Positions 3,253 to 35,973 of a stretch of DNA of 64,000 bases are shown piece after piece (position 1 is the stretch's first letter; every line of letters begins with the position of its first letter). The notes beneath the pieces are model-generated. The model was not told the origin of the DNA and searched no databases. It saw only the letters and a program-made list of their open reading frames with translations. Both the position numbers and the translations under genes were made by a program. Source of the DNA: Allolobophora icterica (Eukaryota > Annelida > Clitellata > Crassiclitellata > Lumbricidae); the NCBI GenBank assembly GCA_963556255.1, contig OY744613.1, positions 47,521,546 through 47,585,545 of the forward strand, in the 5' to 3' direction.

Positions 3253-3360
3253 TCCTTTATATATACATATATATATTCATTTCTTTAAGTGTTGTTTAAG
3301 AAAAACACAAATATTTATTTATGTTTAATTTTTTATTTATTTTATTTTTTCCCAAAAATC

Positions 3361-3960: not shown

Positions 3961-3982
3961 TTAGCATTTAAATCGCGGCGAT

Positions 3983-5280: not shown

Positions 5281-5327
5281 TTTTTTATTAATAATATATG
5301 ATTTTATTTTATTTAAATATAAATAAC

Positions 5328-5858: not shown

Positions 5859-5861
5859 TTT

Positions 5862-6077
5862 TTATATTAATAGCATTATATTTTTATATTCATTTTTATT
5901 TATCGCTCCTTGTCTTAGTAACTCGTCGCATATACCAACTATCTCATTTCTCACACCCGTATTGCCCGCCTCGAAGCTGGCCATTCGCAGAGATAACATT
6001 TCTATTAATGCATTAGGATCTTGAGGAATGACGATACGCTGTAGGCCTATTCCTTTACCTTGCGCCTTTGACATCAT
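5862..6077 (-). CDS. Small Polinton protein of unknown function (71 aa)
   Basis: An intact short frame lying tightly between two late genes (3 bases before the next start), with an A/T-rich TATAAAAA-like leader. The protein is mostly alpha-helical by composition (IEMLSLRMASFEAGNTGVRN), with no cysteine cluster or membrane segment. Spacing and strand make it a likely real late gene of the element. I do not recognise a function. Confidence 0.6.
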   Translation of the reverse strand: MMSKAQGKGIGLQRIVIPQDPNALIEMLSLRMASFEAGNTGVRNEIVGICDELLRQGAINKNEYKNIMLLI

Positions 6078-6113
6078 CGAGTCCCATATCGGTTTAATAA
6101 TTTTTTTATATTT

Positions 6114-6812
6114 TTAGCTCCTAGAGGATTTTGGTTTACTTGGATTTTTCGGCTGCCTCATAGCATTCGTTATCTTCAGAATCTCGGCATATTCTTCCCG
6201 ATCGTTTGCATTGAAAATCGACTCGTCCGGTTTGGCCATCGTTAATAATTCCCAAAGTCCTGGAGTTCCTTCGTATATCTTAGGCCTATCGCCTACCGTC
6301 ACGTTATTGCCGTCGATCGATATAGGACTGTCGCCTATATAAAATTGGCCGGCTTTTGAGTTTATACCGAACGTTGTGTCTACCGTCTTTTTATCGGACG
6401 CGTATTGCTGCAGGTACTTCACCGCAACATCTCCTAGTTCTAAGGTTTTAATAGGCCTATCATATAACGTTTTTATACCTTCTACCGGGTCTTCTCCGTA
6501 AGCCTGTATCGAAGGGTATTGAGGAAACTGAATGGCTTTTAACGATGTCGAAATAGAAGCGGGAAGCGCTTTTAGAGCGTTAGCTGTCTCGGCAGAGTTT
6601 TCTTTTATAGTAGATAACAAAGCCTTTTGTTCTTTTGAAATTGTTGATTGCGAGTCGACTATTGGTTTGTACAATCTCGTTAATTCTCGTTATAGTCCGA
6701 TGTCTCCTAATCTCTCGGATAAAAAGTTTTGTCGAATATTCTTTTTCGATTTCAGAAACTCCTCAACGATAAAATCTCTTTTTGCGGGATCGGTTATCTT
6801 TAGAAACGACAT
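6114..6812 (-). pseudogene. Conserved Polinton virion-type protein with an in-frame stop
   Basis: The ATG at 6812 follows a TATATAAATAAAATATA leader. Codons 1-40 begin MSFLKITDPAKRDFIVEEFL, matching a conserved N-terminus of Polinton late proteins as I recall the family. Codon 41 is TAA (6692-6690), after which the same frame runs open for 192 more codons to 6114. A downstream ATG would give a 186-residue product without the conserved start. The C-terminus is rich in Pro, Lys and Ser. One nonsense change is the simplest reading. Function unknown; late block placement suggests a virion or assembly protein. Confidence 0.7.
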
Positions 6813-6848
6813 TATATTTTATTTATATAAGCTTATAGCTATATTTTT

Positions 6849-6910
6849 TAAACGTAAATTCGAACGTAAATTCGAACGTAATTTCGAACGTTGATTTCGA
6901 ACGTTTAATT
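6849..6910. repeat. Short tandem repeat of about 12 bases between two Polinton genes
   Basis: Four to five imperfect copies of AACGTAAATTCG lie in the gap between the start of the 6114-6812 gene and the stop of the 6910-7446 gene. The last copy overlaps the end of the neighbouring gene. It may be slippage or a control or packaging site; nothing in the sequence decides. Confidence 0.8.
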
Positions 6911-7446
6911 TACGTTCCAGTTAAAACGTTCTCGTTAAACGTTAATTTTTCTGTGCTAACTTTGGTTTTATTTTTAATTTTTTCTTTCATATTGTTGAAT
7001 TTCACAAACTCGCTTAGAATTAGCGAATATTCAACGTCTGAAATATTGTCGTCCACAAGAGCTTTTGAAATGAGGCTACTGATAGTGTTTAGTTTTGCTT
7101 CCGCTAACGTTTTAATCTTTTCGTGCTTTGTCAATTTCAGTGCAAGCTTCTTACTAACTTGTCCTCCGATAATAATTAACAATCCTACACCTACTGCCGT
7201 ACCTGTTGCTATCGCTATGGCCGGAGTTGCAATTACAGTAGCCAGAGCTGCCAGACCCGAGCTGCTGAGCCCGATCACAGTTACTATTAGAGCGTTGTCG
7301 ATAATGCTAATCATTCTTATGTTCCTACGATACTTTGTACTTAAGGCGGTCCTTTTATCGCGTTCTTGTTCGATTTCTTTTTGAATTTCGTTAATTTTTT
7401 TAAAACGATACGATTGCGCTGAATTTTCCATTTGTTTATATTCCAT
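6910..7446 (-). CDS. Conserved Polinton membrane protein (coiled coil plus two hydrophobic segments)
   Basis: An intact 178-codon frame. Residues 1-45 are charged and helical (YRFKKINEIQKEIEQERDKR). Two adjoining hydrophobic segments follow at about 48-72 and 73-97, rich in Ala, Gly, Ile and Val, then a Lys/Glu helical tail (HEKIKTLAEAKLNTISSLIS). This N-helix, membrane hairpin and helical tail plan matches a protein common in animal Polintons as I recall it. It may sit in a membrane during assembly or entry; the role is inferred. The start follows an ATT repeat. Confidence 0.75.
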   Translation of the reverse strand: MEYKQMENSAQSYRFKKINEIQKEIEQERDKRTALSTKYRRNIRMISIIDNALIVTVIGLSSSGLAALATVIATPAIAIATGTAVGVGLLIIIGGQVSKKLALKLTKHEKIKTLAEAKLNTISSLISKALVDDNISDVEYSLILSEFVKFNNMKEKIKNKTKVSTEKLTFNENVLTGT

Positions 7447-7476
7447 TATTATTATTATTATTAAGATTTTTAAAAT

Positions 7477-7878
7477 TTAAACGTGGTAATTAATGTAGCA
7501 TAGCGAATCTTTTTCGTTAATGATAACTACAGAATCGGAATTGTTTTGAATGGTAATAACAATGTCTTCTACATCTTCGCAAATGGTTGAATCTTGCAAG
7601 CTACATTTCTTTTCTTTAATCGCCTGTCTAAGCGAGACTAGACAGACTCCCCTAGTTAGTCGAACGCCAAATCCTAGCTCTTGCGAGACCGACGATCTGG
7701 GTTGAATTGTGATCGCTCGTTGTGCGAAAATCTCCCAACGCTGTGAGCCCGGTTGTCTTATAGCCCGATGCGTTACTTCTTTAGGCAACCAAAATACTGA
7801 TTCTGGTCGAGTTCTAACTCTGCTCGGAGAATTGCGTTTTGTTATAAACTTGTGCATTGGCATACCGTATCGCGACAT
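7477..7878 (-). CDS. Polinton protein with dUTPase-like beta fold pattern, no catalytic motifs
   Basis: An intact 133-codon frame whose ATG directly follows a TATATATAA run. Residues 1-45 are basic (KRNSPSRVRTRPESVFWLP). The remainder reads like beta strands in the order of a trimeric dUTPase: ITIQPRSSVSQELGFGVRLT, then RGVCLVSL, then VEDIVITIQNNSDSVVIINE and KDSLCYINY. The dUTPase motifs that bind nucleotide and metal are not visible, so it is at most a derived structural relative. It could serve as a capsid-associated protein. The family assignment is inference. Confidence 0.55.
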   Translation of the reverse strand: MSRYGMPMHKFITKRNSPSRVRTRPESVFWLPKEVTHRAIRQPGSQRWEIFAQRAITIQPRSSVSQELGFGVRLTRGVCLVSLRQAIKEKKCSLQDSTICEDVEDIVITIQNNSDSVVIINEKDSLCYINYHV

Positions 7879-7911
7879 TATATATATTTATATATATATA
7901 TATTAAAACCT

Positions 7912-8535
7912 TTACAAAATCATTCCAAGAAGCGGACCAAGGATTGGGATGTTAGAAAGTATTTTTGAAATAGGATTGTCGTTTCCAAGAATTAATCCTG
8001 CACCATTGACAAATCCAGAACCTCTGCGCATGTACAGTCCTTCTCCTACACCGTCTAATCCCGACCCTGACCATGGTTTCAGGTAAAGACCTGCTGCGTG
8101 CGGAACCATCTTGTAGCTTCTTCCTCCTTTCTTTATGTATAAAGCACCTCCATTAACACCCGATCCCATTATCTTACTTACTCCTGTACTCGCTAATCCG
8201 CTTAAAGCTCCAGTTGCAAGACTTGGCAGAACCCTAGAAAGAAGAAATTTTCCAGCTGTAGCTAGAAGTGGTAATAACGCTGGAAGAAAACCACCTTCGA
8301 CTTTCATATTATGGTCTATTTGCGTTTTACTCATTTTGAGCGTAGTACCAGTCCCATTCTGATATGCTTTCGCCATTTTATTAATTTGTGCTCGTGTAAG
8401 AGCTAAAACGTGTTCCCCGGATAGATCTCCGTGAGTTAGTCTTATACTCGTTCCTGTCCCTGCTTCAACTGCGCGTTTAATTTTGTCTTTTTGTCCATCC
8501 GAAACATTAACTTTTGTATTCGTATATCGACTCAT
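7912..8535 (-). CDS. Conserved Polinton minor virion protein (Gly-rich)
   Basis: An intact 207-codon frame; the ATG follows TATATATATAAA. The N-terminal half carries a repeated helix pattern (VSDGQKDKIKRAVEAGTGTS and later RAQINKMAKAYQNGTGTTLK). Then comes a hydrophobic stretch (FLPALLPLLATAGKFLL, about 83-110) and a Gly/Tyr-rich tail with ALYIKKGG, GLYLKPWSG and GLYMRRGSG. The start MSRYTNTKVNVSDGQKDKIK is typical of a protein widespread in animal Polintons as I recall. A pVI-like membrane or cement role is possible but not shown. Confidence 0.75.
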   Translation of the reverse strand: MSRYTNTKVNVSDGQKDKIKRAVEAGTGTSIRLTHGDLSGEHVLALTRAQINKMAKAYQNGTGTTLKMSKTQIDHNMKVEGGFLPALLPLLATAGKFLLSRVLPSLATGALSGLASTGVSKIMGSGVNGGALYIKKGGRSYKMVPHAAGLYLKPWSGSGLDGVGEGLYMRRGSGFVNGAGLILGNDNPISKILSNIPILGPLLGMIL

Positions 8536-8587
8536 TTTATATATATATAATTGAAATTAAAAACTTTAATACCACGATAATTAATTC

Positions 8588-9379
8588 TCACACTTCTCTA
8601 ATTTTAAACCTGATCGACAACTCCTCTCCTCGAAGGTTGATTAGTTTTCCATTTTGATCTGTGAGTTTTGTTTCCATTGCTGAAATCGTAAATAGCGTAA
8701 TAGGAAGATATACTAAATTAACGGGCACTTCTATAATCTTGTATCCGGGGCCTACATTCGGGAAAAAGGAATATATAATGTTTTCCGTTGTTCCGTTAGA
8801 GTACGAAGATCCGATTACGTCACTGGTTACTCTCAAACTATTTACGTTCATTATATTTACTATGTTCTCCGATTCGTTATATCCTTCTGAATACACTCGG
8901 CTATTAAATCCTAAAACAGTTCTAATCGAGTTCTCGATTGTCATATTAACCTGATAGTTAGCACCGATATCTAACACCGATTTCAAAGTATTGTTGTTCG
9001 CTTGTAACGTTATACAGTACGCATCTCCCGTTTCGTCATAATGTCCTGATTGTTTCATGATTCTCTGAATGTGTTCGTTTATATCTACGATTTCGTAACT
9101 CCCTTCTGGGATTTCTATGGTAAACCACGTTTTACCATTATCCGGCGAATACACAAATTTGTTGTTTAAAGAATATATATTCGGGAAGAAATTATACGTC
9201 TCAAGATTAACAAGACACATTTCATACTTTTTGTTTTTGTCAAGTTGAATCAGAGGATTAAATTTTGTTCTTATTTGCGTGCTCCTTTCGCTCACCAAAA
9301 TGCTGAATGACTCTTTAGGCTCTGTGTTACGAGCGATCTTTTCTGTGTTCAGAACTATCTTTTCCAACCGCGCTTCCAT
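8588..9379 (-). CDS. Polinton minor capsid (penton) protein
   Basis: I chose the ATG at 9379 (MEARLEKIVLNTEKIARNTE): it follows a TATATATGATATATATA leader and lies just past the ATPase stop at 9414, whereas the upstream in-frame ATG at 9448 would overlap the ATPase gene. The 263-residue product is mostly beta-strand. The C-terminal SFFPNVGPGYKIIEVPVNLV and LPITLFTISAMETKLTDQNG match the conserved end of Polinton penton proteins, a single jelly-roll placed at capsid vertices. The frame is intact. Confidence 0.85.
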   Translation of the reverse strand: MEARLEKIVLNTEKIARNTEPKESFSILVSERSTQIRTKFNPLIQLDKNKKYEMCLVNLETYNFFPNIYSLNNKFVYSPDNGKTWFTIEIPEGSYEIVDINEHIQRIMKQSGHYDETGDAYCITLQANNNTLKSVLDIGANYQVNMTIENSIRTVLGFNSRVYSEGYNESENIVNIMNVNSLRVTSDVIGSSYSNGTTENIIYSFFPNVGPGYKIIEVPVNLVYLPITLFTISAMETKLTDQNGKLINLRGEELSIRFKIREV

Positions 9380-9413
9380 TATATATATCATATATATCTT
9401 ATGAAGATTATTT

Positions 9414-10196
9414 TTATGCTGAAGGCATATAAAATGTATCCAACGCACTCCTATACTTACCGTTGTTTTTTTTACTGGTTAAATCTATCACTACAAATCC
9501 GTGCGGACGCTCCCACGCAGTTTTGCACAGTTTTACAAATTCGTCTTTAGGCATATCATCTACGCCTACGTGATCGTTGTATATATTATTAATATTTTTA
9601 AGGTCTTGACGAAATAAACAGATAAAGTTTGAATTCTCTCTGATGGTCTGTCTAGGCAGTTTGAAGTAGTTTTGAGCGAGGTAAAAGCAATCAACATTAC
9701 TGTGTCTTCCTCTGATGTAATACGATTCACATTTGTTTTGTTTTTCTAATTGTAAATCGTCGAAAATCATCAGGTTCTTTTTATGCTGATTCAAGTCTCT
9801 CGGATCGGGCACTTCTTCCGAAGTTTCAAAGAATCGACAGTTCATATCGGATTTTTTAACTGTGCTTTTAGCCATTTCTTCAACGACTAATGCTGGCGAT
9901 ACATTTAACCTTGCAATCTCGTCTTGACAACCAAACAAATTGACAATTGCTTCTTTCGATAACTTTTCTTCGAATGCTTTTTTAAGTATTTTATATTCTG
10001 GTTGAAAGGGAGATCTTCCAAATACCTGTAGGCTGTCGTAATCTAACCATCCTGGATTCAAAAGTAAATTTAATAATAGCGTAGTCTTACCGCATCCAGA
10101 CTTCCCAACGATCAGACCCCTTATACTTCTAGGTAATAACGGGTTATTAAATCTTTTAGATGTCTCGTCGTTCCAGGATAAATCTTTAACTTCCAT
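9414..10196 (-). CDS. DNA-packaging ATPase (A32/FtsK-HerA type)
   Basis: An intact 260-codon frame. Walker A is GLIVGKSGCGKTTLL (about residues 28-42) and Walker B is NLMIFDDLQLE (about 140-150), followed by a HSNVDCFYLAQNYFKLP sensor-type segment. Order and size match the Polinton/adintovirus packaging ATPase that pumps the genome into the capsid. It is the first late gene, divergent from the zinc-ribbon/PLA2 frame across a 41-base A/T-rich gap, and is one of the best preserved genes of the element. Confidence 0.93.
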   Translation of the reverse strand: MEVKDLSWNDETSKRFNNPLLPRSIRGLIVGKSGCGKTTLLLNLLLNPGWLDYDSLQVFGRSPFQPEYKILKKAFEEKLSKEAIVNLFGCQDEIARLNVSPALVVEEMAKSTVKKSDMNCRFFETSEEVPDPRDLNQHKKNLMIFDDLQLEKQNKCESYYIRGRHSNVDCFYLAQNYFKLPRQTIRENSNFICLFRQDLKNINNIYNDHVGVDDMPKDEFVKLCKTAWERPHGFVVIDLTSKKNNGKYRSALDTFYMPSA

Positions 10197-20733: not shown

Positions 20734-23215
20734 TCATTCGACAAGTTCTGGCCGCATGAAAGTTCCTATGAAGGCAACAGCATTGAAGCGTTGTATGGTG
20801 ATTGACAACCGCTGGAGTAGATAACAAGTCTCCCTAGGGTCTCCGGTGGTTAAAGCTAAGTATCTCCCCAAGTCTTTTATAAGGGCCATTCCGTCGTCAT
20901 TGATAGGGCCTAAGGTCTCGAAAGCTAGAGGGACAAAAAAGTGGTCTGCGCGGATCTGGCTGTACTTGTTGTTCTTTCTCGTGGCCGCTAGTTCCGCTGC
21001 TGCTCCTGATGTCGCGGACGTTGCATGAAGGTAAGAGGGCGCCACAGTGTCAGTTACGGTGACGTCCCATACAAGACTTCGTCCTCTGCGCCATGGTATC
21101 AGCGTAAGTCCGTCCGGTCGTCTCCCGTCCGTCCTCGACAGTCCAGGTGGTTCCTTGATATTAGGGACGCCCGCTCGAGATAGGCCTCGGCTTATCAAAT
21201 CGTTCAAAGCCGCATGTCTGGCGATTCTGCCAGGTCCTAGGTTGCACGACATCCCGTGTGACCCGTCCGCCGTCACCATTGCTCCACAGGGACATGCGTG
21301 CGGTTCGCATATATTCGTCCCCAGTCTGAGGCCTAGTGCAATTCTTACCGCCTCGTCATCCAATCGCAGCCCGCATGATGACACCGGTAGTGCGAACAGC
21401 CAGTCGCTGGCGTGTGGTGCTGAGGCTGCTTTGAATCTTGCTTGGTGGTAAGCGTCGACCAGAGAGGCGTCCAATGAGTCCACCACTTTCTTCACGAGAG
21501 GACCATCCCAATACGATTGTCTGTATGCTGCGTAATTATCTGAATGTGTGATTTGACTTTCGGCGTTCCATCAATGTAACAACTTTTCAACGCGCGCGTC
21601 GGTGATGGATTGGTCGTAACCTAACATGGAAGACTGAAGGACGTGGGTGCCTGCAGCGGAAGCCAAGAAGGCAGGAAGCGCAAGCGAAGCGACCCGACGT
21701 ATGCCCAGTCCTCCCGTCTTGACCGGTAAGGACGCTTGAAGCCATTGCATATCGGTAAGGTTAAGGTTGAGGATTGAGCACAAACCTTTCTTCTGTATTT
21801 CGTCATATTTGTCTAGTAGAGCATGTCCGCTGCAGGGGTGGGATCTTAGGGTGTGTAGTAGCTTTTGTGAACACAGTGAGCTTCTGAGGAGGACTAAGGC
21901 ATCATGTTTTGCAATATTTTCCAGTCTTGAAAGCGCCAGCGTCAGTTCCGAGCAGCGAAACTCCAGGCTTGCAGTTAGGGCCTCCTCGGACGACAGCGGT
22001 GCGCCAAGCAAACAGGCCGCTTCCGGTGCGATAGCGGGAAAGTGTTGAAGGTTTGAAGGAACTTCCCCCTCTCCATGCGCGATATTACTTCGCATTTTGC
22101 GTAGTTGAGTTGCAGACCTAGCAATCCGCTCTCGTATTCCAGTGTTTTCACGTCCTCCGCCACAATAGAGGCCCTTCCTCCCAGAGACAAATCGTCCAGA
22201 TATCCAAGCACAAGCGATGACGATAATTTCTCAAGCATTGGTTGCAACGGCAGGCAAAACAGTAGCGGTCCCAACGGGTCGCCTTGTTGGGGACCGACTT
22301 GTGAGAGAATAGTATATTGTCCGAATTGTAGTATCGAAGCTTCAGCATAAGCAAGACGGATATATGATGTCAGTTCTGGCGCGATCTCATCCATCGAGGT
22401 GAGCATGCGGTCTCTGTGTAGGCTGTTGAAAGCATTGCTGAATTCTAGCTTGATCAGGACCGAATCTGTAGGCATTTCTTCCAGAAATCGCCTAGCCGCG
22501 TGAACCGCGGCTTCCGTCCCTCCAGGTACACCTACTCCCACCTGCCTCGGCGCGAGGTAGGTCACTGCTTTTGGAACTACATGGGTGTTTGCACATTTGG
22601 ATGTGAGTCTGCGCCAGTAGTAGCCTATTACAATGGGGCGCAGGCCTCCAGTTTTCTTTCTCAGTGCCAGGAGTGTGCCTCCGAACAGGATCGGTGTAAT
22701 CTGTTCCGGGCAGGTTCCTGTCAGGAGGAGGTTAACTAAGCCGGTGATGGCTGAGATAAATTCCGCCCCGATATCGGCGCAGTTCATCAGATCTGACAAA
22801 TGCTGTGGCCGTAAGCCGTCCGGCCCTCCCGAAGAACCCGCCGGAAAAGAGCGTATTTGAGCTCTAACCTGATCCTCGGTGGTTTGGAAGGGCGGTATAT
22901 GGGTTGTCGGCGAGATCACATGTCGTTTGGGCGGAGGCTCCGGATGTTTTGTTCTCAGTTCTTCCAGGGTCTCGAGGTCTGCCTGCGCCGGCTTGTCGCT
23001 TGAGCATAGGATTCTGACTGCCGCTCTTATGTTACCGTCTTCCAACTTGGACGCCACCGCCGCAGCCACCGCCTGCTCGTCACTCAGTTTTGTTCTTCTT
23101 CCGCGGTTGTTGTCAGTGAGGCTGTTTGATGAAATTTCCGCCCATTTGAGTGGCCAGTCCGTGGGGAATTTTTCAACCCGCTTTTTTATGGTTGATGTTA
23201 GGTTGTGACGTTTAC
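20734..23215 (-). pseudogene. LINE with restriction-like endonuclease (R2/R4-like), two lesions
   Basis: The frame opens near 23,215 and runs to a frameshift near 22,060-22,075, in a G-run of the coding strand. It then continues in another frame to 20,734 with one in-frame TGA at 21573-21571. Reverse transcriptase motifs are FPAGSSGGPDGLRPQHL, KLEFSNAFNSLHRD, GPQQGDPLGPLLFCL and the catalytic GYLDDLSLGG. The C-terminus has a Cys/His cluster (CPCGAMVTADGSHGMSC) followed by RRPDGLTLIPW and LVWDVTVTD, the CCHC plus PD-(D/E)XK-type nuclease arrangement of R2/R4-like elements. No N-terminal start is certain. (TAA)n borders both sides. The clade is inferred. Confidence 0.78.
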
Positions 23216-24892: not shown

Positions 24893-24896
24893 GTTT

Positions 24897-26712
24897 TGTG
24901 GCGGTCAAGGCCACAGTGCGTATGTGGGAAGATTTATTTTATGCGAATAGCATCGTTTTCTTTAATTTTACATGCGAAGGGAACAGCATCGTTTATCTTA
25001 ATTTTTCATGCGAAGACCCAGTATCGATCATTTAATTTTTATTTAATTTCAATAGGCGACTGTCCGGCAACGACCGTGGTAGGGAAGCCCGATCGAAGGT
25101 GTAAGGCCAGCGCATAGCGAGCAGACGCGTTAATTCGGGATGCATAGAGCCTGCCTCACGGTGCGCTGCTTTATACGTGAAGAGTTGGTTCGACTCTTCA
25201 TACATAGCAATACTGTTAAACAGCGTTGTTGGTTAGCGATTCAGTTACCGATTCAAATATACTGCACTCAGTGTGGTAGGCGAGTGATTTTGGTTACGAC
25301 CGAGTCAGAGTTCGAGTTTCCGGTTAGTACAAATATATTTACGGACGAAAGGGGCGTTCGAATAATATAATCAGGCGATCCCGAGTACAGCTAAAGAAGT
25401 TCACTGTTGGGAGACGGGCCGACAGCGCCGATCCGGCGGGTTGGATCCCTCCGTTGATCGCGAAGCGGTCTAGATCGCGATCGTGGGAAATCTACGGCTG
25501 AGTAATACTCGGGGAAGGATACCGTTGATACACAGGAAAACCAATTCAGTGTGAGATCGAAAACCAGGGTGAATTTGGCGACGGGCAGGAAAGTCCCTCT
25601 TGGGTTTTGAAGAACCCCGCGATCGGAGCTTGTCCGGTTACCTGTGGGAGTAAGCGTGACCTTCGTTAGGGAACCAAAATTCGGAAATTCTTGGGAACAA
25701 AATTCAGGACATTCTGGTAACCTTACGGGGTCGGCGTTACATTTGGATTGTGACACTTGGATGGCTGACACGCCGGTGGAGCGTTGGAGGGGCTCCATCG
25801 CCCGGTAACTAAAAATAGTTACTGGGAAAGACCACTGTTACCGAAAGACCGCAGTACGGGAAAAGACCGCCCGACAACTGATTACAGTGCGGTAAGACCA
25901 GGAAAACGATAGAGTCAGGAAAATCTTGTATTCAAACCAATCGTTATTCAGAGCAAATAACTTGGTGATCGAAACACGTAGTTCCGAGAACTGACCGAAG
26001 TGCGAAGTAGGGCCCACCTCGTGCGCCGGTCGGAACACAGTTCTGCGTGCGGTTAGGGAGGTTTTAGACCTAGAACCTGTCCTATCAGAAGAGAGTGTCG
26101 TGAGACCAGTATACCGCGTTAATATTACACGTATATATATTATCGCAAGATGTTCGCGTGTTTGAGACGGCACGACGTGACGACTCGTCAGATGTACACC
26201 TTGTCCTCTCGGACAGGAGAACGTTCAGAGTTTTCCCCTATTGACGATAACTCGAGAGTCATGAGATGCAGAATGGTACGTGAGGGTTCGGTTAAGGTGG
26301 AGAAAAAGAGGAAGTCTTTGACTAAGAGATCTCACAGGAAGCTGAGGACTCCTGCCGGCAAGAGAGCGAACCCTGTTCTAAAGGACGGCCATCCTGAGGA
26401 CGAGGACGTTGCCCACCCGGCGACCGCGGCAGTGGCAGAGTCCGAAAGTGAGATGGAGCTTGACAGCGACACTGTTCGCAAACAAGCGATACCCTCGGGA
26501 CCTCCTCTTGGAGAAATGGGCACTGAGAGCGGAGACAGGGAACCGCTCGTCTACAGCAGAAGTAGACAGGATAGTGACCCGGGCGACTCCAGAAGGTCAG
26601 TTGGCTGGAGCCGAACCCAGCCCGACGACGAAGCAGCGTCTCGGGTAAGACCGACACAAATTGGTACCACGTCTGATGAAGGGTTAGTTGATCTCGAGCG
26701 ACGAACGTCACA
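24897..26712 (+). repeat. 5' LTR of the Gypsy element (1,816 bp)
   Basis: Matches 33,639-35,867 from TGTGGCGG to CGTCACA, with TG...CA ends. It is 413 bases shorter than the 3' LTR because only one of three copies of the GGCGACGGGCAGGAAAGTCC-type unit remains near 25,560-25,640. The last 563 bases (26,150-26,712) are the start of the gag-pol frame. TATATATATTAT at about 26,132-26,144 sits directly before the first ATG; whether it is the promoter cannot be told. Confidence 0.9.
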
Positions 26713-29700
26713 AACTGGTACCAGAAGTGGGGTTCTAGCGTTTTCTTGTCACAGAACCAGGCAAGGTCAGGAAGATACCGAGGACGAGTCGGATGAAGTG
26801 CCCCATAGTGAGCACGGAGGCGCGCGTCCAAAGTTACGTAAACGGAAAAGCAAACGAAGGTTGCTTGATGAAACGGGTGCACCTGACGAAACCAGTGCAT
26901 TTGAAACGGAAGCTGGAACCCGCAGTGGGCGTGAAAGAGGTTTCCATGAGGATAACGGATGGTTGATAACCGTTCCAAAGACTACTGAGGTAGTACGGAA
27001 CGATGTGAATAACGAGACATTCACACACTGGCGAGAGACCGTTGGTGAGAGTAGGTTTGACAGGTCCAAACCACTCGACGACAATAGAGTTCCGCGTATA
27101 ATACATGAGAGAACGTTCGACAATAGATCGGGGAACCTTGTGCAGGTTCAAGTACCTAGTATTGTACGGGGCAAGCAACCTGTACAGTTGAGACAGGCTT
27201 GTGATAGGCCAAGAGACATTGAGACAGGCCTGAAACCGCGGGGTGACGCTGTAGTGCAGAAAACGAGTGGTGACATCGTGGCGCATCAGCGAAACGAAGG
27301 TAATCGAGTACCGTTTACCAACATGGAAGAAGGTCGCCCAAGACCTGTGACAGATGAGGTAGATTGGCAAGCGGAGATGTCTTACCTGCGACAGAGTGTG
27401 GCAATGATGAGCTCGAAACTTGAAGGACTGTCTGTTCCTGCTGCTCAGCATGCGAAGTCTTACCGACGCGAGACATCGGGGAAACCTACGGGCCCAGGTT
27501 GCCAGATGGATCGCCGAGGGAAGCTGCAGGTCGAAGAGTCGGCACGGAGCCGAGGTAACACAGAGACACGCGAGGAAGTTTCGCTTTCGGAAACTTCGGA
27601 AAAGTTACGTAGCCGCTATCTTCCCGAGGACAGCGGGAGAGAGTCACACGGAAAAACGGCAAGGCAATCGAGTCGACAACGTCTGTTGACAAGAGGAAGA
27701 GTTGAGGCGAAATTACGTTCGTCAGTGAGTTCTTCGGATTCAGACACCGATAGTGTTGGTCCAGAAGAGGCCATGAGAACCGGAGTCTTTGACAGGAAAA
27801 ACCTCCGCCAACGAGGAAGACACGAGAGTTATGAGAAAACTGAAAGGGAGACGTATGGTAAGGAACGTCTACCAGAGTACGAGAGACGTGGTTTAAAACA
27901 GGCACTTGATAGAGAAACCGAGAGAGAATCGAACATGGGAAGAGGCAGAGATCATTTGGCCTGGGATGAGACCCACGAGCGGTACTCTAAAGGGCACAAA
28001 CCAGATTCGAGAAGTCGTAATTGTCTTAGGTACGACGAATCTGACAGACCGCCAGAGTCAGGAAAAAGAGATATTCGCGAAGAAGACAGAAGAGTTACGT
28101 TCGTCAACGGAAACTCTCAGAGCTCTCGCAATAAATATAAACGATCGGAGTCCAAAGACTACGCAGGTGGTGAGCCTCGTAGAAAAGGTCAGAGACAGGC
28201 TGAGTACATCTCTGATGAAGACAGTGCAACGTCAGACGACCGAGAGATGACTACGATGTATTCTAAGTGGCGTACAGGGAAGACGTTGGGTACTCTGAGG
28301 GGACAGAGTCGGCACCGGTCAGAGGTGAGGACAGACGAGGAAAACGATTCCAGGAGTAACGATGAGGACAACCGGAGAGGAAATCCCAAGAAGAGTGTCG
28401 GAAGATCACTTGTTACGCGGACAAGAGGCGAAGACCGATCGGATCGCGGTATACGAATCAAGCTAGAGAAGTACGACGGCAAGTCAGCGATCGCAGCCTT
28501 TCTAGCAAAGTTCGAAGTTTGTGCACGGTGCAACCGGTGGAGTGATCAGGAAAAAGCAGACCAGTTAATGTGTGCCCTAACGGGTCCCGCTTCGCAGCTG
28601 TTGTGGGACATGGGTGCACAGAGGGACGTGTCTTGGCGAGAACTTGTTGAGCGGCTTAAGGCCCGGTACGGGTCTGATGACCAAACTAGCCTATATCGGA
28701 TGAAACTTCGCACTTACCGGCAGGCTCACGGAGAAACGCTGAGTAGTGTAGTGCAGGAAGTACGAAGGCTAATGGCTTTGGCATACCCAGGACCAACAAG
28801 TGATATCGTCGAGACGGTCGCTTGTGACGCTTTCATTGATGCACTGGCAAACCAAGATTTGGGGCAGAAGGTGCGCGAGCGAGAACCAGTTAACCTCGAA
28901 GCGGCGTATAAACATGCGGTGAGGTTGGATGCCTATGGTCGATCTTCGACACAAGGTGGTGATTTAGACCGGAGACACGCGAGAGTTAAAGTTACCATGG
29001 AAGACCGAAAAGACTCGAGCACTGAGGGGCAACAGTCTCGTCGTCTAGAAGATCTCGAGCGAAAGATTAAAAATCTTTCAAGAGAACTTGATCGAGTGAC
29101 AATAAATCAGAATTTGGGCATCGTTCCGAGAAAACCTCATGAAAGGGAGAACAGTTCTGATCTAGCTGTGGGAGATCAGAGGACAACCGAACCGAATGTG
29201 GGGTGGCGACGGATTTATCCGCCCACACGGTTGCGTAACCCGGATATCGAATGCTACTTGTGCAAACGAAAAGGACACATGAAGCGATTTTGTCCTCAGA
29301 GAAACGCTGAGACGAATGGTGCAACCGGTACCAGTGAACCTACAAAGGCTGAACCGATACAAGAGGAAACCCAAAACCGACTGGTCAAAGGCAGTAGGGT
29401 GGCCTACGTGGTTGCGAGACTGGCAGGAAAACGTATACACTGTCTACTTGATTCTGGAAGTGAAATGTCACTTGTGCCACGACGTTTCGTGCTAGACGCT
29501 GTACTAGTACCGTCAGAACAGCGACTCCTAGCCGCTAATGGAAGTCAGATTAAGGTGGATGGTGAAACTAACCTTAAGATTCGGATCGGAAAGCAGGTGT
29601 ACCCTGTACCCTGTCTAGTTACAGACCAAGTGACAGAAGTGATCTTGGGGTTATCTTGGCTGGAAGCCAATCAGGCAAGATGGGACTTCGCAAGTCGATG

Positions 29701-32041
29701 CGTTTTCCTTGGGAGCGAGAAGATCCCTCTGAAAGAGGTCGTTACCGAGTCCATGTGCCGGAGGGTTATTGTGCAAGAGGACATAATAGTTCCTCCAAGG
29801 AGCGAAGTTGACGTTCCAGCTTGGGTCGTATACCCGCATTTCCAAAAAGATAACGAAGATTGGACGACCATTCCAATGGAATTATCAAAAGATTTGATAA
29901 TCGGACGTACGTTGGTGACAGGAAGAGACACGGAAGTGTGGATCAGGATGTTGAATGTTGGAGACAGAGATTCGCTAGTCAAGAAACGGACTGAATGTCC
30001 GCTGGAGCGAGTGAACGTAGTCGATGTGACAGTTAATCGAGCCAGAACGGAATCGTATGATGAGCCTTACCGAAGCGAAAACCCGGAGAAGCCTATGGGC
30101 CCAGGTTATCCGGAGGAACGCCGAGGAAAGCAGCAAAGTACGATTGACCGGTTTGGATCGAAGATTAGTACAACGGCCAGTGTGGCGGAGCAGACGCTCA
30201 ACCCACTTGCCGAACAGACCCTAAAACGACTATGGGAAGAAGTGCCAGCCGACATTTCGGAAGAAGAGCGAATCAGGTTACGAAAACTTGTGCTAACGTA
30301 CAGCGCAACGTTTTCCCTTAACGAAAGTGATAACGGATTCACTTCGGTGATCCAACACGAGATCGATACGGGACAGGAGAAACCAGTTCGGCAACCTTTG
30401 AGACGTCAACCGCTTTCCATGTTACCGGAAGTTGATCGTCAGGTAGAAGACATGTTGAGACAAGGAATCATTGAACCTTCGATATCGGAATGGGCATCCA
30501 ATGTCGTAATGGTTAAGAAAAAGGATGGCAGTATGCGTGTCTGTATCGATTACAGGCAACTGAACCTGAAGACACGGAAAGATGCTCATCCGTTACCCCT
30601 TATCCGCGAGAGTTTAGATACCCTGGGTGGCGCCAGATGGTACAGTACGTTCGATTTGAGAGCAGGTTATCACCAGATGGCCTTGCACCCAAGAGACAAA
30701 CACAAGACCGGGTTCGTTACGAGAAGGGGCAGCTTCCAATTCAAAGTGTTACCTTTCGGATTGTGCAATAGTCCGGCCTCGTTTTGTCGACTAATGAACT
30801 TAGTCTTGACAGGGCTAAACTATGACATCTGTCTGGTTTACTTGGATGACATAATTGTGTTCTCGAGGGACGTAGAGACGCACATGCAACGTCTAGAGAT
30901 GATTTTCAGGAGATTACAAGAGTATAATCTCAAGCTGAAACCATCCAAATGTTACCTGTTACAACAGAGAGTATTGTTTCTTGGTCACGTTTTGAGTGAA
31001 GAAGGGGTCGCGACGGATCCGAGCAAGATCAAGGCCGTAGAAGAATGGTCTGCTCCTCGGAACTTGAGGCAAGTCAGATCCTTCGTTGGTCTTTGCTCCT
31101 ATTACCGACGTTTCATACATGATTTCGCGGTGGTAGCTCAACCACTTCATTTTCTGACCAGGAAAAATGTACCGTTCCATTGGACTGACGAATGTCAGGG
31201 AGCTTTCGAAGAACTTAAACGAAAGTTGGTTTCCGCACCTATACTTGGGTTACCGAACGACGAGGGCCAGTACATCCTAGATACGGATGCCTCGGCATAC
31301 GCCATTGGAGCGGTGTTATCGCAAGTACAAGAAGGAGAAGAGACAGTGATTTGTTACGCGAGTCGGCTCTTGTCGACGGCGGAACGGAACTATAACGTTA
31401 CCAGGCGAGAGTTGTTAGCTGTGGTGTATTTCTTGAAAGAGTTTCGTCAGTACTTACTGGGTAGTAAATTCCTACTCAGAACAGACCACTCCGCACTTCA
31501 GTGGTTACGCAGAACACCGGAACCGATTGGCCAACAGGCTCGTTGGTTAGAGATGATAGAGGAGTTTGACATGGAGATATGTCACAGACCGGGAGCAAAA
31601 CACGGTAACGCAGACGCGATGTCTAGAGGTCCGGGTGAGGAACAACCTAAAGTGGTTACCATGACAGTTACGAATGAAGACGTGATGTGGGCACGTCCGA
31701 TCGGAGAAGTAACGCGCTCCGAGGTTACCAGTGAAGATACAGGCCAGGAAATCCGTTGGACAAAGGAGTTTCTTCGAAGAGAACAGCAGAGCGATTGTAG
31801 TATTGGTACGGTCCTTGGTTGGAAGGAGTCGAAGCATCATCCAACACAGGCAGAACTATCACCTGCTAACGGAGAGGTGAAAGTGTTGGTGAGCAACTGG
31901 AATCAGCTGGAAGTCCTGCAAGGAGTGTTACACAGAGGCTGGATTCAGGGTAACACAGGAAAAGCTGAGCGATCTCAGTTAGTTGTGCCCTTATCTCTAC
32001 GGCAAGAGATGCTTCAGTTAACACACGCAAGCTTTGCCTGA
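26150..32041 (+). CDS. Gypsy Gag-Pol polyprotein, first open section (1963 codons)
   Basis: Residues 1-188 are encoded inside the 5' LTR and are basic, then acidic (KRSHRKLRTPAGKR, SESEMELDS). About 189-765 is Arg/Glu/Ser-rich and probably disordered. About 765-930 is a retrotransposon Gag core (IKLEKYDGKSAIAAFLAKFE). A CCHC knuckle CYLCKRKGHMKRFC is at 1034-1047. Protease HCLLDSGSEMSLVP is near 1097. Reverse transcriptase runs about 1420-1620 (VCIDYRQLNLKT, VYLDDIIVFS near 1563). RNase H is about 1700-1820 (LDTDASAYAIGAVLS, HGNADAMSRG). The frame stops at TGA 32039-32041, within the integrase zinc-binding region. The initiating ATG is not certain: 26150 is the first in the frame, but later ATGs exist. 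A single Gag-Pol frame without a shift is common in Gypsy elements. Confidence 0.9.
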   Translation: MFACLRRHDVTTRQMYTLSSRTGERSEFSPIDDNSRVMRCRMVREGSVKVEKKRKSLTKRSHRKLRTPAGKRANPVLKDGHPEDEDVAHPATAAVAESESEMELDSDTVRKQAIPSGPPLGEMGTESGDREPLVYSRSRQDSDPGDSRRSVGWSRTQPDDEAASRVRPTQIGTTSDEGLVDLERRTSQTGTRSGVLAFSCHRTRQGQEDTEDESDEVPHSEHGGARPKLRKRKSKRRLLDETGAPDETSAFETEAGTRSGRERGFHEDNGWLITVPKTTEVVRNDVNNETFTHWRETVGESRFDRSKPLDDNRVPRIIHERTFDNRSGNLVQVQVPSIVRGKQPVQLRQACDRPRDIETGLKPRGDAVVQKTSGDIVAHQRNEGNRVPFTNMEEGRPRPVTDEVDWQAEMSYLRQSVAMMSSKLEGLSVPAAQHAKSYRRETSGKPTGPGCQMDRRGKLQVEESARSRGNTETREEVSLSETSEKLRSRYLPEDSGRESHGKTARQSSRQRLLTRGRVEAKLRSSVSSSDSDTDSVGPEEAMRTGVFDRKNLRQRGRHESYEKTERETYGKERLPEYERRGLKQALDRETERESNMGRGRDHLAWDETHERYSKGHKPDSRSRNCLRYDESDRPPESGKRDIREEDRRVTFVNGNSQSSRNKYKRSESKDYAGGEPRRKGQRQAEYISDEDSATSDDREMTTMYSKWRTGKTLGTLRGQSRHRSEVRTDEENDSRSNDEDNRRGNPKKSVGRSLVTRTRGEDRSDRGIRIKLEKYDGKSAIAAFLAKFEVCARCNRWSDQEKADQLMCALTGPASQLLWDMGAQRDVSWRELVERLKARYGSDDQTSLYRMKLRTYRQAHGETLSSVVQEVRRLMALAYPGPTSDIVETVACDAFIDALANQDLGQKVREREPVNLEAAYKHAVRLDAYGRSSTQGGDLDRRHARVKVTMEDRKDSSTEGQQSRRLEDLERKIKNLSRELDRVTINQNLGIVPRKPHERENSSDLAVGDQRTTEPNVGWRRIYPPTRLRNPDIECYLCKRKGHMKRFCPQRNAETNGATGTSEPTKAEPIQEETQNRLVKGSRVAYVVARLAGKRIHCLLDSGSEMSLVPRRFVLDAVLVPSEQRLLAANGSQIKVDGETNLKIRIGKQVYPVPCLVTDQVTEVILGLSWLEANQARWDFASRCVFLGSEKIPLKEVVTESMCRRVIVQEDIIVPPRSEVDVPAWVVYPHFQKDNEDWTTIPMELSKDLIIGRTLVTGRDTEVWIRMLNVGDRDSLVKKRTECPLERVNVVDVTVNRARTESYDEPYRSENPEKPMGPGYPEERRGKQQSTIDRFGSKISTTASVAEQTLNPLAEQTLKRLWEEVPADISEEERIRLRKLVLTYSATFSLNESDNGFTSVIQHEIDTGQEKPVRQPLRRQPLSMLPEVDRQVEDMLRQGIIEPSISEWASNVVMVKKKDGSMRVCIDYRQLNLKTRKDAHPLPLIRESLDTLGGARWYSTFDLRAGYHQMALHPRDKHKTGFVTRRGSFQFKVLPFGLCNSPASFCRLMNLVLTGLNYDICLVYLDDIIVFSRDVETHMQRLEMIFRRLQEYNLKLKPSKCYLLQQRVLFLGHVLSEEGVATDPSKIKAVEEWSAPRNLRQVRSFVGLCSYYRRFIHDFAVVAQPLHFLTRKNVPFHWTDECQGAFEELKRKLVSAPILGLPNDEGQYILDTDASAYAIGAVLSQVQEGEETVICYASRLLSTAERNYNVTRRELLAVVYFLKEFRQYLLGSKFLLRTDHSALQWLRRTPEPIGQQARWLEMIEEFDMEICHRPGAKHGNADAMSRGPGEEQPKVVTMTVTNEDVMWARPIGEVTRSEVTSEDTGQEIRWTKEFLRREQQSDCSIGTVLGWKESKHHPTQAELSPANGEVKVLVSNWNQLEVLQGVLHRGWIQGNTGKAERSQLVVPLSLRQEMLQLTHASFA
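26716..26733 (+). promoter_or_regulatory. Primer binding site, tRNA-Leu type
   Basis: TGGTACCAGAAGTGGGGT lies three bases after the LTR ends. It is complementary to a tRNA 3' end of the form ...CCCCACTTCTGGTACCA, as in animal tRNA-Leu. It is also coding: the gag-pol frame passes through it without a stop. Confidence 0.85.
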
Positions 32042-32565
32042 GGACATTTCGGGATTCGGAAGAGTTTAACTCAGTTGCAACGCCGGGCGTATTGGCCGAG
32101 TTGGAAGGACGATGTTAGACGGTTCTGCCAAAGGTGCGATCGCTGTGCTCGTTATCGAAGGGAGAAACCTCCAAGACAGGGTTACATGCAGACTCCTGTG
32201 GTCGGTGAACCAATGGAGAGATTCGGAATTGATATAACTGGTCCGCATCCTGTATCAAGTAAAGGCAACAAATACATACTGACAGCGATAGACCGTGTCT
32301 GTACCGGATTCAGAAGAGTCCGAAATCCACGCTAATGGTTGTGCACGTGGATAAATTGAAGCCGTTTTACGGTAAACCTCCGAGTACCTGGTTACCGGAG
32401 AGGGACAGAAATCTTGAGTTACCTACAGTAGACTGGCCAGTCCTGGCTCAAGATCCTAATGCAGAACATGAACCAGAGGAACCTTCAGAGAATCCAGACG
32501 AGACCGCTGATCCAGAATTGCCACCTGGACGACGGACGAGACGAAGACCTCGCTTGGATGGATGA
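32042..32565 (+). pseudogene. Gypsy integrase remainder with internal deletion
   Basis: The gag-pol frame continues after the TGA with GHFGIRKSLTQLQRRAYWPS, the Cys pair FCQRCDRC and the first catalytic Asp (RFGIDITGP), to about 32,300. There it jumps: the +1 frame from about 32,302 reads YRIQKSPKSTLMVVHVDKLK, the C-terminal integrase region. The middle, with the second Asp and the Glu of the DDE triad, is absent. The C-terminal tail is Pro/Glu-rich, then Arg-rich, ending at 32,565. No chromodomain is visible. This product would be inactive. Confidence 0.88.
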
Positions 32566-33625
32566 CTACGACTGTAGAAGTCCTTGTTAGTGACCTTCTG
32601 AAGCAGACGTGTATCTAGGACCAACTAGATGAACGCTTAATTGCGTTGGTTTTATTGACTAGTCGAGACCCATGTTTCAGTTGCCCTTTTGATGAGAGTA
32701 TTTCTTTTGAGCGGTATCTGGGAGCATACAGTACCTGTGCTACCATCAACGCTTGATTGCGTTGGTTTTACAGATTGTCAGTGAATGACTGTTTAAGTTT
32801 CCTTTTGATGATATGTTTCGGTTAAACATTGGCTTAGTGGTTAGTACTGAAACGAGTAAAGATTCCAGTACTAGAACGCTTCATTGCGTTGGTTCTACAA
32901 GCGAATTATTGGAGAACCATGTTTCCGTTTCCTTGTGATGACAGAGTTTCTTTTCGACAGTATAATGCTCGTAACAACGAGTGTTAAGGAAATTCGGGGC
33001 AATGCGATTTCCTTGGTTACCGTTTCATGATACTTTAGTGCGCTACCTTAGTGCGCACTTAGGATAGATCATCATGCGATAGAAGCATATGTTAGGACTT
33101 AGATCATGTGCGTAAATATGATAACTTGTAACTGTTGTCCGCTTTTATTTTGCTTTCACGATTTGGAAGTGGTACCGGGTGTGACTGATCGACGATGGTT
33201 ACCAGATCGGGAGACAGTGGGCGACTTTTCTCTCCTTTAGTTCTCCTGGCCCTTGGGGTCCGGTAGAGCCCAGGTTCATGATAGAGGGCCTGTTAAGGTT
33301 GGCGATTTGTCAGGTACGACAGGTTGCCAGTAGGGTGGTGGTTCGGATCGAAAGCATCATTAAATAGGCTGTCGCTATCACGGTTCTCATCGTGTTTGGC
33401 GTACGTGCAGGGTGCCGAGAGATCGAAAGCATCATTAAATAGGCTGTCGCTATCACGGTTCTCATCGTGTTTGGCGTACGTGCAGGGTGCTGAGATTGCT
33501 GATATACCGCCCTATAACCAAAGGTGCATTTGGTTCCTTGCTCTCTAAGTGGATCTGGGTTGGGGATGTTCCTGTCACGTTTGATTAAGGTCCCCGATTT
33601 TGGCAGAGATGCTCCGCATCTAAGT
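32566..33625 (+). other. Gypsy 3' untranslated region with two sets of tandem repeats
   Basis: Three diverged units of about 116-127 bases each start at ACGCTTnATTGCGTTGG (32,633, 32,749, 32,876) and share CCTTTTGATGA and TTTCTTTT words. Further on, a unit of about 74 bases, starting GATCGAAAGCATCATTAAAT, occurs twice back to back (about 33,347-33,420 and 33,421-33,494). No env-like frame is present. Confidence 0.8.
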
Positions 33626-33638
33626 AAGGTGGGGAGAG
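33626..33638 (+). promoter_or_regulatory. Polypurine tract
   Basis: AAGGTGGGGAGAG abuts the TGTGGCGG start of the 3' LTR. This is the expected primer site for plus-strand DNA synthesis; the equivalent position before the 5' LTR (ending TTGGTTT) has no such tract. Confidence 0.85.
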
Positions 33639-35867
33639 TGTGGCGGTCAAGGCCACAGTGCGTATGTGGGAAGATTTATTTTATGCGAATAGCATCGTTT
33701 TCTTTAATTTTACATGCGAAGGGAACAGCATCGTTTATCTTAATTTTTCATGCGAAGACCCAGTATCGATCATTTAATTTTTATTTAATTTCAATAGGCG
33801 ACTGTCCGGCAACGACCGTGGTAGGGAAGCCCGATCGAAGGTGTAAGGCCAGCGCATAGCGAGCAGACGCGTTAATTCGGGATGCATAGAGCCTGCCTCA
33901 CGGTGCGCTGCTTTATACGTGAAGAGTTGGTTCGACTCTTCATACATAGCAATACTGTTAAACAGCGTTGTTGGTTAGCGATTCAGTTACCGATTCAAAT
34001 ATACTGCACTCAGTGTGGTAGGCGAGTGATTTTGGTTACGACCGAGTCAGAGTTCGAGTTTCCGGTTAGTACAAATATATTTACGGACGAAAGGGGCGTT
34101 CGAATAATATAATCAGGCGATCCCGAGTACAGCTAAAGAAGTTCACTGTTGGGAGACGGGCCGACAGCGCCGATCCGGCGGGTTGGATCCCTCCGTTGAT
34201 CGCGAAGCGGTCTAGATCGCGATCGTGGGAAATCTACGGCTGAGTAATACTCGGGGAAGGATACCGTTGATACACAGGAAAACCAATTCAGTGTGAGATC
34301 GAAAACCAGGGTGAATTTGGCGACGGGCAGGAAAGTCCCTCTTGGGTTTTGAAGAACTCCGCGATCGGAGCTTGTCCGGTAACCCATGGGAGTAGAGGTG
34401 ACCTTCTTAAGGTAGCCATTTTCTGGAATTCTGAAATCCTTGAAACCAAGAGTAAATTTGGCGTCGGGCAAGGAAATCCCTCTTGGAGTTCGAAGAACTC
34501 CAAGATCCGACAGTGTTTGGTTTTATACACTGAGACGAGTTTTACGCGATTTCGGCGTACTCGACACAGGGGAAGTTCTACGCGCTTTCGGCGTACTCGG
34601 CCGGGAGAGTTTTACGCGACTTCGGCGTCCTCGGCTGGGAGAGTTTTACGCGACTTCGGCACTCGGTGAAGTGACCGTCGGGATACCTGAAAAAACCAGT
34701 TTAGTACAAAAACGATAATAAGGGTAAATTTGGCGACAGGCAGGAAGTTCCCTCTTGGGTTTTGAAGAACCCCGCGATCGGAGCTTGTCCGGTTACCTGT
34801 GGGAGTAAGCGTGACCTTCGTTAGGGAACCAAAATTCGGAAATTCTTGGGAACAAAATTCAGGACATTCTGGTAACCTTACGGGGTCGGCGTTACATTTG
34901 GATTGTGACACTTGGATGGCTGACACGCCGGTGGAGCGTTGGAGGGGCTCCATCGCCCGGTAACTAAAAATAGTTACTGGGAAAGACCACTGTTACCGAA
35001 AGACCGCAGTACGGGAAAAGACCGCCCGACAACTGATTACAGTGCGGTAAGACCAGGAAAACGATAGAGTCAGGAAAATCTTGTATTCAAACCAATCGTT
35101 ATTCAGAGCAAATAACTTGGTGATCGAAACACGTAGTTCCGAGAACTGACCGAAGTGCGAAGTAGGGCCCACCTCGTGCGCCGGTCGGAACACAGTTCTG
35201 CGTGCGGTTAGGGAGGTTTTAGACCTAGAACCTGTCCTATCAGAAGAGAGTGTCGTGAGACCAGTATACCGCGTTAATATTACACGTATATATATTATCG
35301 CAAGATGTTCGCGTGTTTGAGACGGCACGACGTGACGACTCGTCAGATGTACACCTTGTCCTCTCGGACAGGAGAACGTTCAGAGTTTTCCCCTATTGAC
35401 GATAACTCGAGAGTCATGAGATGCAGAATGGTACGTGAGGGTTCGGTTAAGGTGGAGAAAAAGAGGAAGTCTTTGACTAAGAGATCTCACAGGAAGCTGA
35501 GGACTCCTGCCGGCAAGAGAGCGAACCCTGTTCTAAAGGACGGCCATCCTGAGGACGAGGACGTTGCCCACCCGGCGACCGCGGCAGTGGCAGAGTCCGA
35601 AAGTGAGATGGAGCTTGACAGCGACACTGTTCGCAAACAAGCGATACCCTCGGGACCTCCTCTTGGAGAAATGGGCACTGAGAGCGGAGACAGGGAACCG
35701 CTCGTCTACAGCAGAAGTAGACAGGATAGTGACCCGGGCGACTCCAGAAGGTCAGTTGGCTGGAGCCGAACCCAGCCCGACGACGAAGCAGCGTCTCGGG
35801 TAAGACCGACACAAATTGGTACCACGTCTGATGAAGGGTTAGTTGATCTCGAGCGACGAACGTCACA
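33639..35867 (+). repeat. 3' LTR of the Gypsy element (2,229 bp)
   Basis: The full-length LTR form. Near 34,310-34,800 it has three units with TTTGGCGACGGGCAGG/AAATCCCTCTTGG words, plus a TTTTACGCGACTTCGGC sub-repeat (about 34,540-34,670). The last 563 bases repeat the LTR-encoded start of gag-pol; here the frame stops two codons after the LTR, at 35,872-35,874, so that 189-codon frame is not a separate gene. Confidence 0.9.
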
Positions 35868-35973
35868 GTTTTAACATTGGGTCCATATGGACCCCAACAC
35901 CCTAAGTATGATTAATATGACTAACTTAGCGACATACTACGAGGGTAGGGACCTGTGAATCACAAATTTTCAG

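Follow-up and report, generated by a model that had tools for sequence, protein, structure and literature searches.

In the usual picture of Ty3/Gypsy retrotransposons, the long terminal repeat (LTR) serves regulation, the primer binding site (PBS) serves priming and gag encodes protein, and the three are separate. Proteins encoded in the 3' LTR are known from mouse mammary tumor virus (MMTV), with Sag, and from lentiviruses, with Nef, and GAG of yeast Ty1 starts inside the LTR, where about 14 GAG codons lie. Excerpts of the Ty1 literature localize the PBS in the GAG open reading frame (ORF) (PMC4974528), and give the LTR as 334 bp long, with mutations from nucleotide 335 onwards that disrupt annealing of the primer and keep the GAG amino acids (PMC5454406). 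In plant CRM group A chromoviruses, according to an excerpt of the source, the polyprotein extends into the 3' LTR (PMC3059260). Here, a stretch of 64,000 nt from Allolobophora icterica (OY744613.1, 47,521,546-47,585,545, forward strand, assembly GCA_963556255.1; hereafter the window, to which all positions refer) was analysed. It holds one LTR retrotransposon that is very probably a Ty3/Gypsy element with its PBS inside the Gag-Pol coding sequence, in a frame that starts in the LTR.

Among these systems, yeast Ty1 is the closest precedent, as far as the excerpts describe it, and its PBS also lies inside GAG. Ty1 is a Ty1/Copia element (Pseudoviridae) with few GAG codons in its 334-bp LTR, whereas the present element has the Gypsy order of reverse transcriptase (RT), RNase H and integrase, and LTRs of 1.8 to at least 3.3 kb that carry about 190 codons and a leader of 1 kb or more. 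The CRM group A elements, which are Ty3/Gypsy, share with it a coding sequence common to LTR and polyprotein; as described in the excerpt, their 3' LTR contains the C-terminal end of the polyprotein, while the LTR of the present element contains the N-terminal end of Gag, ahead of the PBS. Sag of MMTV and Nef of lentiviruses differ as accessory genes in U3 of the 3' LTR, whereas here the start of Gag lies in U5. A literature search, with subscription journals and Repbase reports mostly outside its coverage, found no Gypsy element in which gag begins inside the LTR, and there is a real possibility that single earlier cases stand unremarked in element databases.

The gag-pol frame, the LTR border and the PBS

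All features of the element are on the forward strand. Comparison of the two LTRs places the 5' LTR at 24897-26712 (1816 bp) and the 3' LTR at 33639-35867 (2229 bp). Both start with TGTGGCGG, end with CGTCACA and have TG...CA ends, and the element is flanked by the target site duplication GTTT (24893-24896 and 35868-35871). The 5' LTR end at 26,712 that the first-pass annotation had proposed is borne out by the duplication, the TG...CA ends and the comparison of the 5' and 3' copies. The LTR end is followed by AAC and then by TGGTACCAGAAGTGGGGTTC at 26716-26735, whose complement forms the 3' end of a tRNA-Leu(TAA) gene of this genome; a tRNA-Leu-type PBS three bases past CGTCACA, also part of that annotation, is thereby confirmed. 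Two places in the genome carry the 22-base tRNA end GGTTCGAACCCCACTTCTGGTA, and the one examined (L077) closes a tRNA-Leu(TAA) gene with the exact complement of the PBS.

As listed among the ORFs, a single gag-pol frame of 1963 codons in the window copy (26150-32041) begins with an ATG at 26150 and meets its first stop at 32039-32041. Translation confirmed that it opens inside the LTR and crosses both the border and the PBS, as had been claimed, the PBS being read in frame as part of ...QTGTRSGV.... The 188 codons said to be carried by both LTRs were found as well: 26150-26712 holds 187 complete codons and the first two bases of codon 188, which crosses the border, and the 3' LTR contains the matching N-terminal frame of 189 codons (35305-35874), whose translation ends in TSQF-stop in the flank. 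The nearest in-frame stop upstream of 26150 is at 26120. From 26150 to 26712 this frame has 0 stops, while the two other forward frames have 8 and 15, and a stop-free frame was obtained in 5 of 20000 base shuffles. Past the PBS, about 196 further open codons without ATG precede the first in-frame ATG at 27323. The LTR-encoded part and the N-terminal extension matched no Pfam family at E <= 0.1, and an Rfam scan gave no match at gathering scores.

The arrangement is not confined to the window. The LTR tail (25566-26712), used as query against the 1.12-Gb genome, has many near-identical copies genome-wide, and the best-scoring 40 of 1188 candidates were scored. These belong to 24 elements, three of them solo LTRs, and as the best-scoring copies they are therefore the youngest. 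The ATG is present and the LTR codons are free of stops in all 40, the sole indel among these frames being a 6-base deletion in L037. In 16 pairs of 5' and 3' LTRs compared over 873 bases (gaps uncounted), 12 showed 0 differences, three showed one and one showed three. When 21 5' copies were read into gag (window included), the frame was open across the LTR/PBS border in 19; L033 has a stop at codon 792, downstream of the border, and the indels seen in the open copies were of 6 and 39 bases. The 187-residue peptide was then compared with the whole genome (150 of 2657 candidates scored), and 149 of the 150 matches had no stop. Their frames measured at most 410 codons in 78 cases, presumably 3' or solo LTRs, and at least 500 in 72, presumably 5' LTRs. 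Open frames of at least 1900 codons held 50 of the 150, and 32 lay in frames of exactly 2363 (20) or exactly 2376 codons (12), a difference of 13 codons that equals the 39-base indel. A common family form is thus one gag-pol frame of about 2350 codons starting in the LTR, and the LTR-internal start of the frame is a property of this family, a young and abundant element.

The LTR peptide was also searched against 5.8 billion proteins at a threshold of E <= 1, and five relatives were obtained, the weakest at 1.1e-21. Two of them (86% and 99% identical) run to the LTR border and have one or several other residues after it. The remaining three are 42-49% identical by alignment (44-50% in the search table); two read on through the PBS as QTGTRSGV and the third ends at its apparent LTR end. 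With residues 1-330 of the frame as query, 0 of 3733 protein candidates passed E <= 0.001, and this query probably missed the five relatives through length limits. Scans of IMG/VR with RT-RNase H and with alignment A1 confirmed no relative.

With P0123 as query, a second family (family B) was found in the same genome, at about 65% DNA identity in this region to the family of the window element (family A). Out of 3021 candidates 150 were scored. The 25 scored rows that pass the PBS (query end 242) contain no stop, and many rows ending at the LTR border carry one to four. The 21 5' copies fetched from those 25 rows (L055, L056 and L058-L076) all have an open frame from LTR to PBS, and all continue past the LTR with the same 22 bases, AACTGGTACCAGAAGTGGGGTA. 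The pair L055/L057 is 99.65% identical over 2006 bases, reaching one base past the LTR end, with LTRs of at least 3.29 kb, the left end lying beyond the fetched sequence. Family B is identical to family A in anatomy, and it has kept the arrangement under selection.

A capsid search for further families scored 126 of 2399 candidates, all 100% family A. Around the capsid match at C7:40317194, C8:13263673 and C9:49266432, open frames of 4752, 4035 and 2789 codons exceed one element and may come from nesting or tandem fusion. LTR matches at regular distances of about 8.5 and 9.8 kb were seen at C5:5414338-5448957 (family B) and at C4:21509505-21529695 and C14:44011236-44031336 (family A), which suggests tandem arrays of elements with common LTRs.

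Selection on the LTR codons and the start of translation

Young family A copies hold too few changes for an estimate of nonsynonymous and synonymous divergence (dN and dS) among them, and families A and B were compared instead. Over 178 aligned codons, dS was 0.90 and dN 0.35 (ratio 0.39), and the corresponding ratio of proportions (pN/pS) was 0.54 (bootstrap 0.42-0.69). This set includes the border codon and seven PBS codons, which the tRNA constrains too; with these left out (170 codons), dN/dS was 0.38 and the bootstrap range of pN/pS 0.43-0.68. In the two shifted frames, where each sequence has 7-18 stops, pN/pS was 0.98 and 0.81. Because A and B were aligned as proteins, the gaps between them are multiples of three by method, whereas the open frames do not depend on it. 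Codons 1-42, through the ATG at codon 42, followed a similar pattern (pS 0.57, pN 0.30). Purifying selection on 26,150-26,712 was the test set beforehand for the claim that LTR, PBS and protein evolve together and that the LTR codons are real protein sequence; the comparison of A with B found such selection and supports both. As in a Ty1-like arrangement, the frame is open and selected across the LTR/PBS border.

Several results weigh against this interpretation. Family A copies alone (20 5' copies) gave a weak signal, with a pN/pS of 0.52 in the LTR part and p = 0.063 (0.45 in the following gag stretch), and one shifted frame in the same copies gave 0.63. In the 40-LTR set the ratio was 0.85 for shared and 0.64 for single changes, and one shifted frame reached 0.23 for shared changes, at 10 sites only; shifted frames in these small A-only sets scatter from 0.23 to 1.57. 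Both closed copies among the 21 are defective in the LTR codons or at the border, L049 through a deletion of about 50 bases within the LTR that breaks the frame and L038 through a stop in the border codon. The synonymous codon usage of the LTR frame correlates with that of pol at 0.08 and a wrong frame at 0.43. By codon preference, the LTR frame has the best log-odds of six (0.7, the others -8.5 or less). Codon usage is a poor witness for coding here, weak and partly contrary, and lends it little support.

About 13 ATGs would be expected in the putative transcribed 5' leader in the LTR (R-U5, 25147-26149), and 1 is present; no other of the 64 trinucleotides has so low a z, and 0 of 2000 shuffles were as low in ATG. 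The longer family A form (33889-35304) has 2 against 15.0 expected and family B 1 against 17.8, again with the lowest z and with 0 of 1000 shuffles as low in either case. The frequency of ATG is normal in the left 250 bp of the family A LTR and in the 3' non-coding part. CAT, the reverse complement of ATG, is mildly low in the A leader as well (5 against 9.6 expected, z -2.0), so part of the ATG shortage may be compositional. In the window LTR, ATGs thin out past 25140, and in family B 14 lie in the first 435 fetched bases, followed by one in about 2290 up to the start. Such a desert looks like the mark of a scanned 5' leader that would begin near the left end of the LTR, and in both families it would agree with initiation at or near 26150. 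The sole upstream ATG of the window leader opens an upstream ORF (uORF) of 15 codons (25761-25808) that is not conserved in family B; a conserved uORF was rejected, as those of A and B differ. Tandem repeats with a 34-bp unit occupy 34537-34660, within the putative leader of the window's 3' LTR, and the family B leader (L078/L079) is repeat-rich and nearly free of ATG.

Other observations argue against 26150 itself as the initiation codon. A TATA-like string, TATATATA, lies at 26132-26139, 10 nt upstream of this ATG, and with a transcription start site (TSS) 25-30 nt downstream of this string the transcript would lack codon 1, leaving for initiation the ATGs at codons 15, 38 or 42, which are still in the LTR. 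The public protein P0122 is predicted from the codon-42 ATG, which stands in AGAATGG, a better context by commonly held rules. The start could also be a non-AUG codon, and in family B it could be either of two ATGs, the inner of which, 19 codons further in, aligns with that of family A. Even so, a start in the LTR at one of these other codons, through a TSS near 26132 or internal initiation, is rather unlikely: codons 1-42 are constrained much like the remainder, in the alignments family B and P0123 come within three residues of A codon 1, and the scanned leader looks long, as the ATG-poor tract starts about 1 kb or more upstream.

It is far less probable that the LTR frame is a chance read-through, with translation beginning at a later ATG (27323 or beyond) and the LTR part left untranslated. 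The N-terminal 763 codons of the frame matched no Pfam family, the public pol relatives P0002 and P0003 are shorter, and the codon usage unlike that of pol would also fit. Set against this are the in-frame pN/pS given above with its higher out-of-frame values, homologues of about 45% identity that retain the frame, indels in open A copies that are multiples of three, the ATG desert upstream in both families and the ATG-less open codons between the PBS and 27323. No more credible is an origin of the LTR segment as a host exon captured by the element, or as a separate gene fused to gag. The search found no homology of the segment outside the element, and the peptide, as read from the sequence, has many basic and acidic residues, as a disordered tail would, both of which this origin would accommodate. 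Yet three of the five relatives end at or just past the apparent LTR border, one runs through the PBS and another is identical to it there, so the segment travels with the element. Misplaced borders, with the true 5' LTR ending before 26150, can practically be dismissed, as no evidence for them was found, all 22 loci classed as 3' or solo LTRs end in GAACGTCACA followed by unrelated flanks, all 16 5' copies continue with AAC and the PBS, and 5'/3' identity reaches the LTR-end base in the window and comes within one base of it in family B.

Proposed mechanism and possible displacement of the border

Taken as a Gag-Pol frame that starts in the LTR and contains the PBS, the element can be pictured as follows. 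In retroelements, U5 is by definition the RNA between R and the PBS, and sequence upstream of the PBS is present in both LTRs because it is copied into minus-strand strong-stop DNA. Strong-stop copying would here take in the long AUG-poor leader and the first 188 codons or so. Transcription probably starts near the 5' end of the LTR, leaving a short U3; ribosomes would cross the AUG-depleted leader, initiate at the LTR ATG (26150) and carry on across U5 into Gag-Pol, with the PBS translated as QTGTRSGV. During reverse transcription, those same PBS nucleotides would pair with tRNA-Leu(UAA) as the primer site. The LTR codons would then be coding in the 5' LTR and be recopied into the 3' LTR in every cycle.

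The position of the border itself may have changed. A 15-nt near-copy (14/15) of the LTR end and PBS start lies at 26655-26669, 54 nt upstream and in the same frame; it matches CACAAACTGGTACCA (26709-26723), and 0 of 20000 shuffles gave a match as good. Between VGWS and QTGTRSGV, P0123 has 17 codons and family B 15 codons fewer than family A. A likely reading of this in-frame repeat is that the family A border was formerly at 26655-26669 and was moved 18 codons down the gene by a duplication of the PBS.

The first-pass annotation had added that each solo LTR supplies an N-terminal peptide. The open frame is there in the three solo LTRs among the 40, which upholds the statement in part, for a predicted peptide of these three. 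A more speculative extension, which we regard as doubtful, is that the LTR constitutes a gene of its own: as promoter, leader and the first 188 or so Gag codons would all lie within it, the many 3' and solo LTRs could each express a truncated, basic N-terminal Gag peptide, and the border would slide through the gene by in-frame duplication of the PBS. If true, the LTR peptide could act in trans on full-length Gag, by dominant-negative control of copy number or by helping assembly or packaging.

Classification, neighbouring elements and implications

Beyond its N-terminal part, the element is of ordinary Gypsy type. Pfam matches mark the Gag capsid domain (PF03732, Retrotrans_gag, 28571-28783; PNMA matches too), a CCHC zinc knuckle at 29249-29299 (E 0.0094; 16.5 bits, below the curated cut-off of 20.8), an aspartyl protease (29411-29659), the reverse transcriptase RVT_1 (30512-30991), RNase H (31181-31567) and the H2C2 zinc domain of integrase. 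This succession of capsid, weak CCHC, protease, RT, RNase H and integrase is the Gypsy order, and Ty3/Gypsy (Metaviridae) membership also agrees with the TG...CA LTRs and short target site duplication and with a tRNA-type PBS after the 5' LTR and a polypurine tract, read from the sequence at 33624-33638, adjoining the 3' LTR. Ty1/Copia membership was rejected, as the domain scan places integrase downstream and not upstream of RT. The best two of 194 solved sequences matched by the RT piece are Gypsy-type, 7q5b_A ('Transposon Ty3-G Gag-Pol polyprotein') and 4ol8_A ('Reverse transcriptase/ribonuclease H'), the latter of which we take to be a Ty3 protein; a placement from best matches to solved sequences holds at the Gypsy level. 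In RT/RNase H, the element is related to K02A2.6-like Gypsy elements, with 53% identity to P0001 of Cordylochernes scorpioides, a Gypsy-type element so annotated.

The window copy, defective in integrase, falls short of the full-length form. A stop in the H2C2 domain ends its frame, an integrase remnant follows (32039-32335, from Pfam and comparison with L047), and about 690 bp present in L047 after about 32292 are missing. Its 5' LTR also lacks about 413 bp of the 3' LTR, so that a deletion distinguishes the two LTRs of this one element. The longer form was found in 37 of 38 other fetched loci (1272-1274 nt against 860 in the window's 5' LTR), L017 being the one whose LTR length was not measurable. 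The missing segment sits between partial direct repeats of the window's 3' LTR (25566-25668 compared with 34308-34823).

Two other elements lie in the window, both on the minus strand. An ORF run at 1525-10196 with a double-jelly-roll capsid (PF21738, E 5.6e-57) and a Pox_A32-type ATPase (PF04665, E 2.4e-09) is presumably an endogenous Polinton/Maverick- or adintovirus-like element. A reverse transcriptase fragment at 21978-22787 (RVT_1, E 4.4e-14) is probably the remnant of a non-LTR element.

For the Ty3/Gypsy group, the separation of LTR, PBS and gag would not hold in two families of one genome, where about 190 selected codons lie in U5 and the priming site itself is in frame. The border of an LTR is set only by the position of tRNA priming, so coding sequence can be drawn into the LTRs, and the element shows one route by which LTRs can become long. 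For such families, LTR dating, the annotation of solo LTRs and the assumption that LTRs are neutral would mislead, and solo LTRs may be taken for genes by gene prediction programs.

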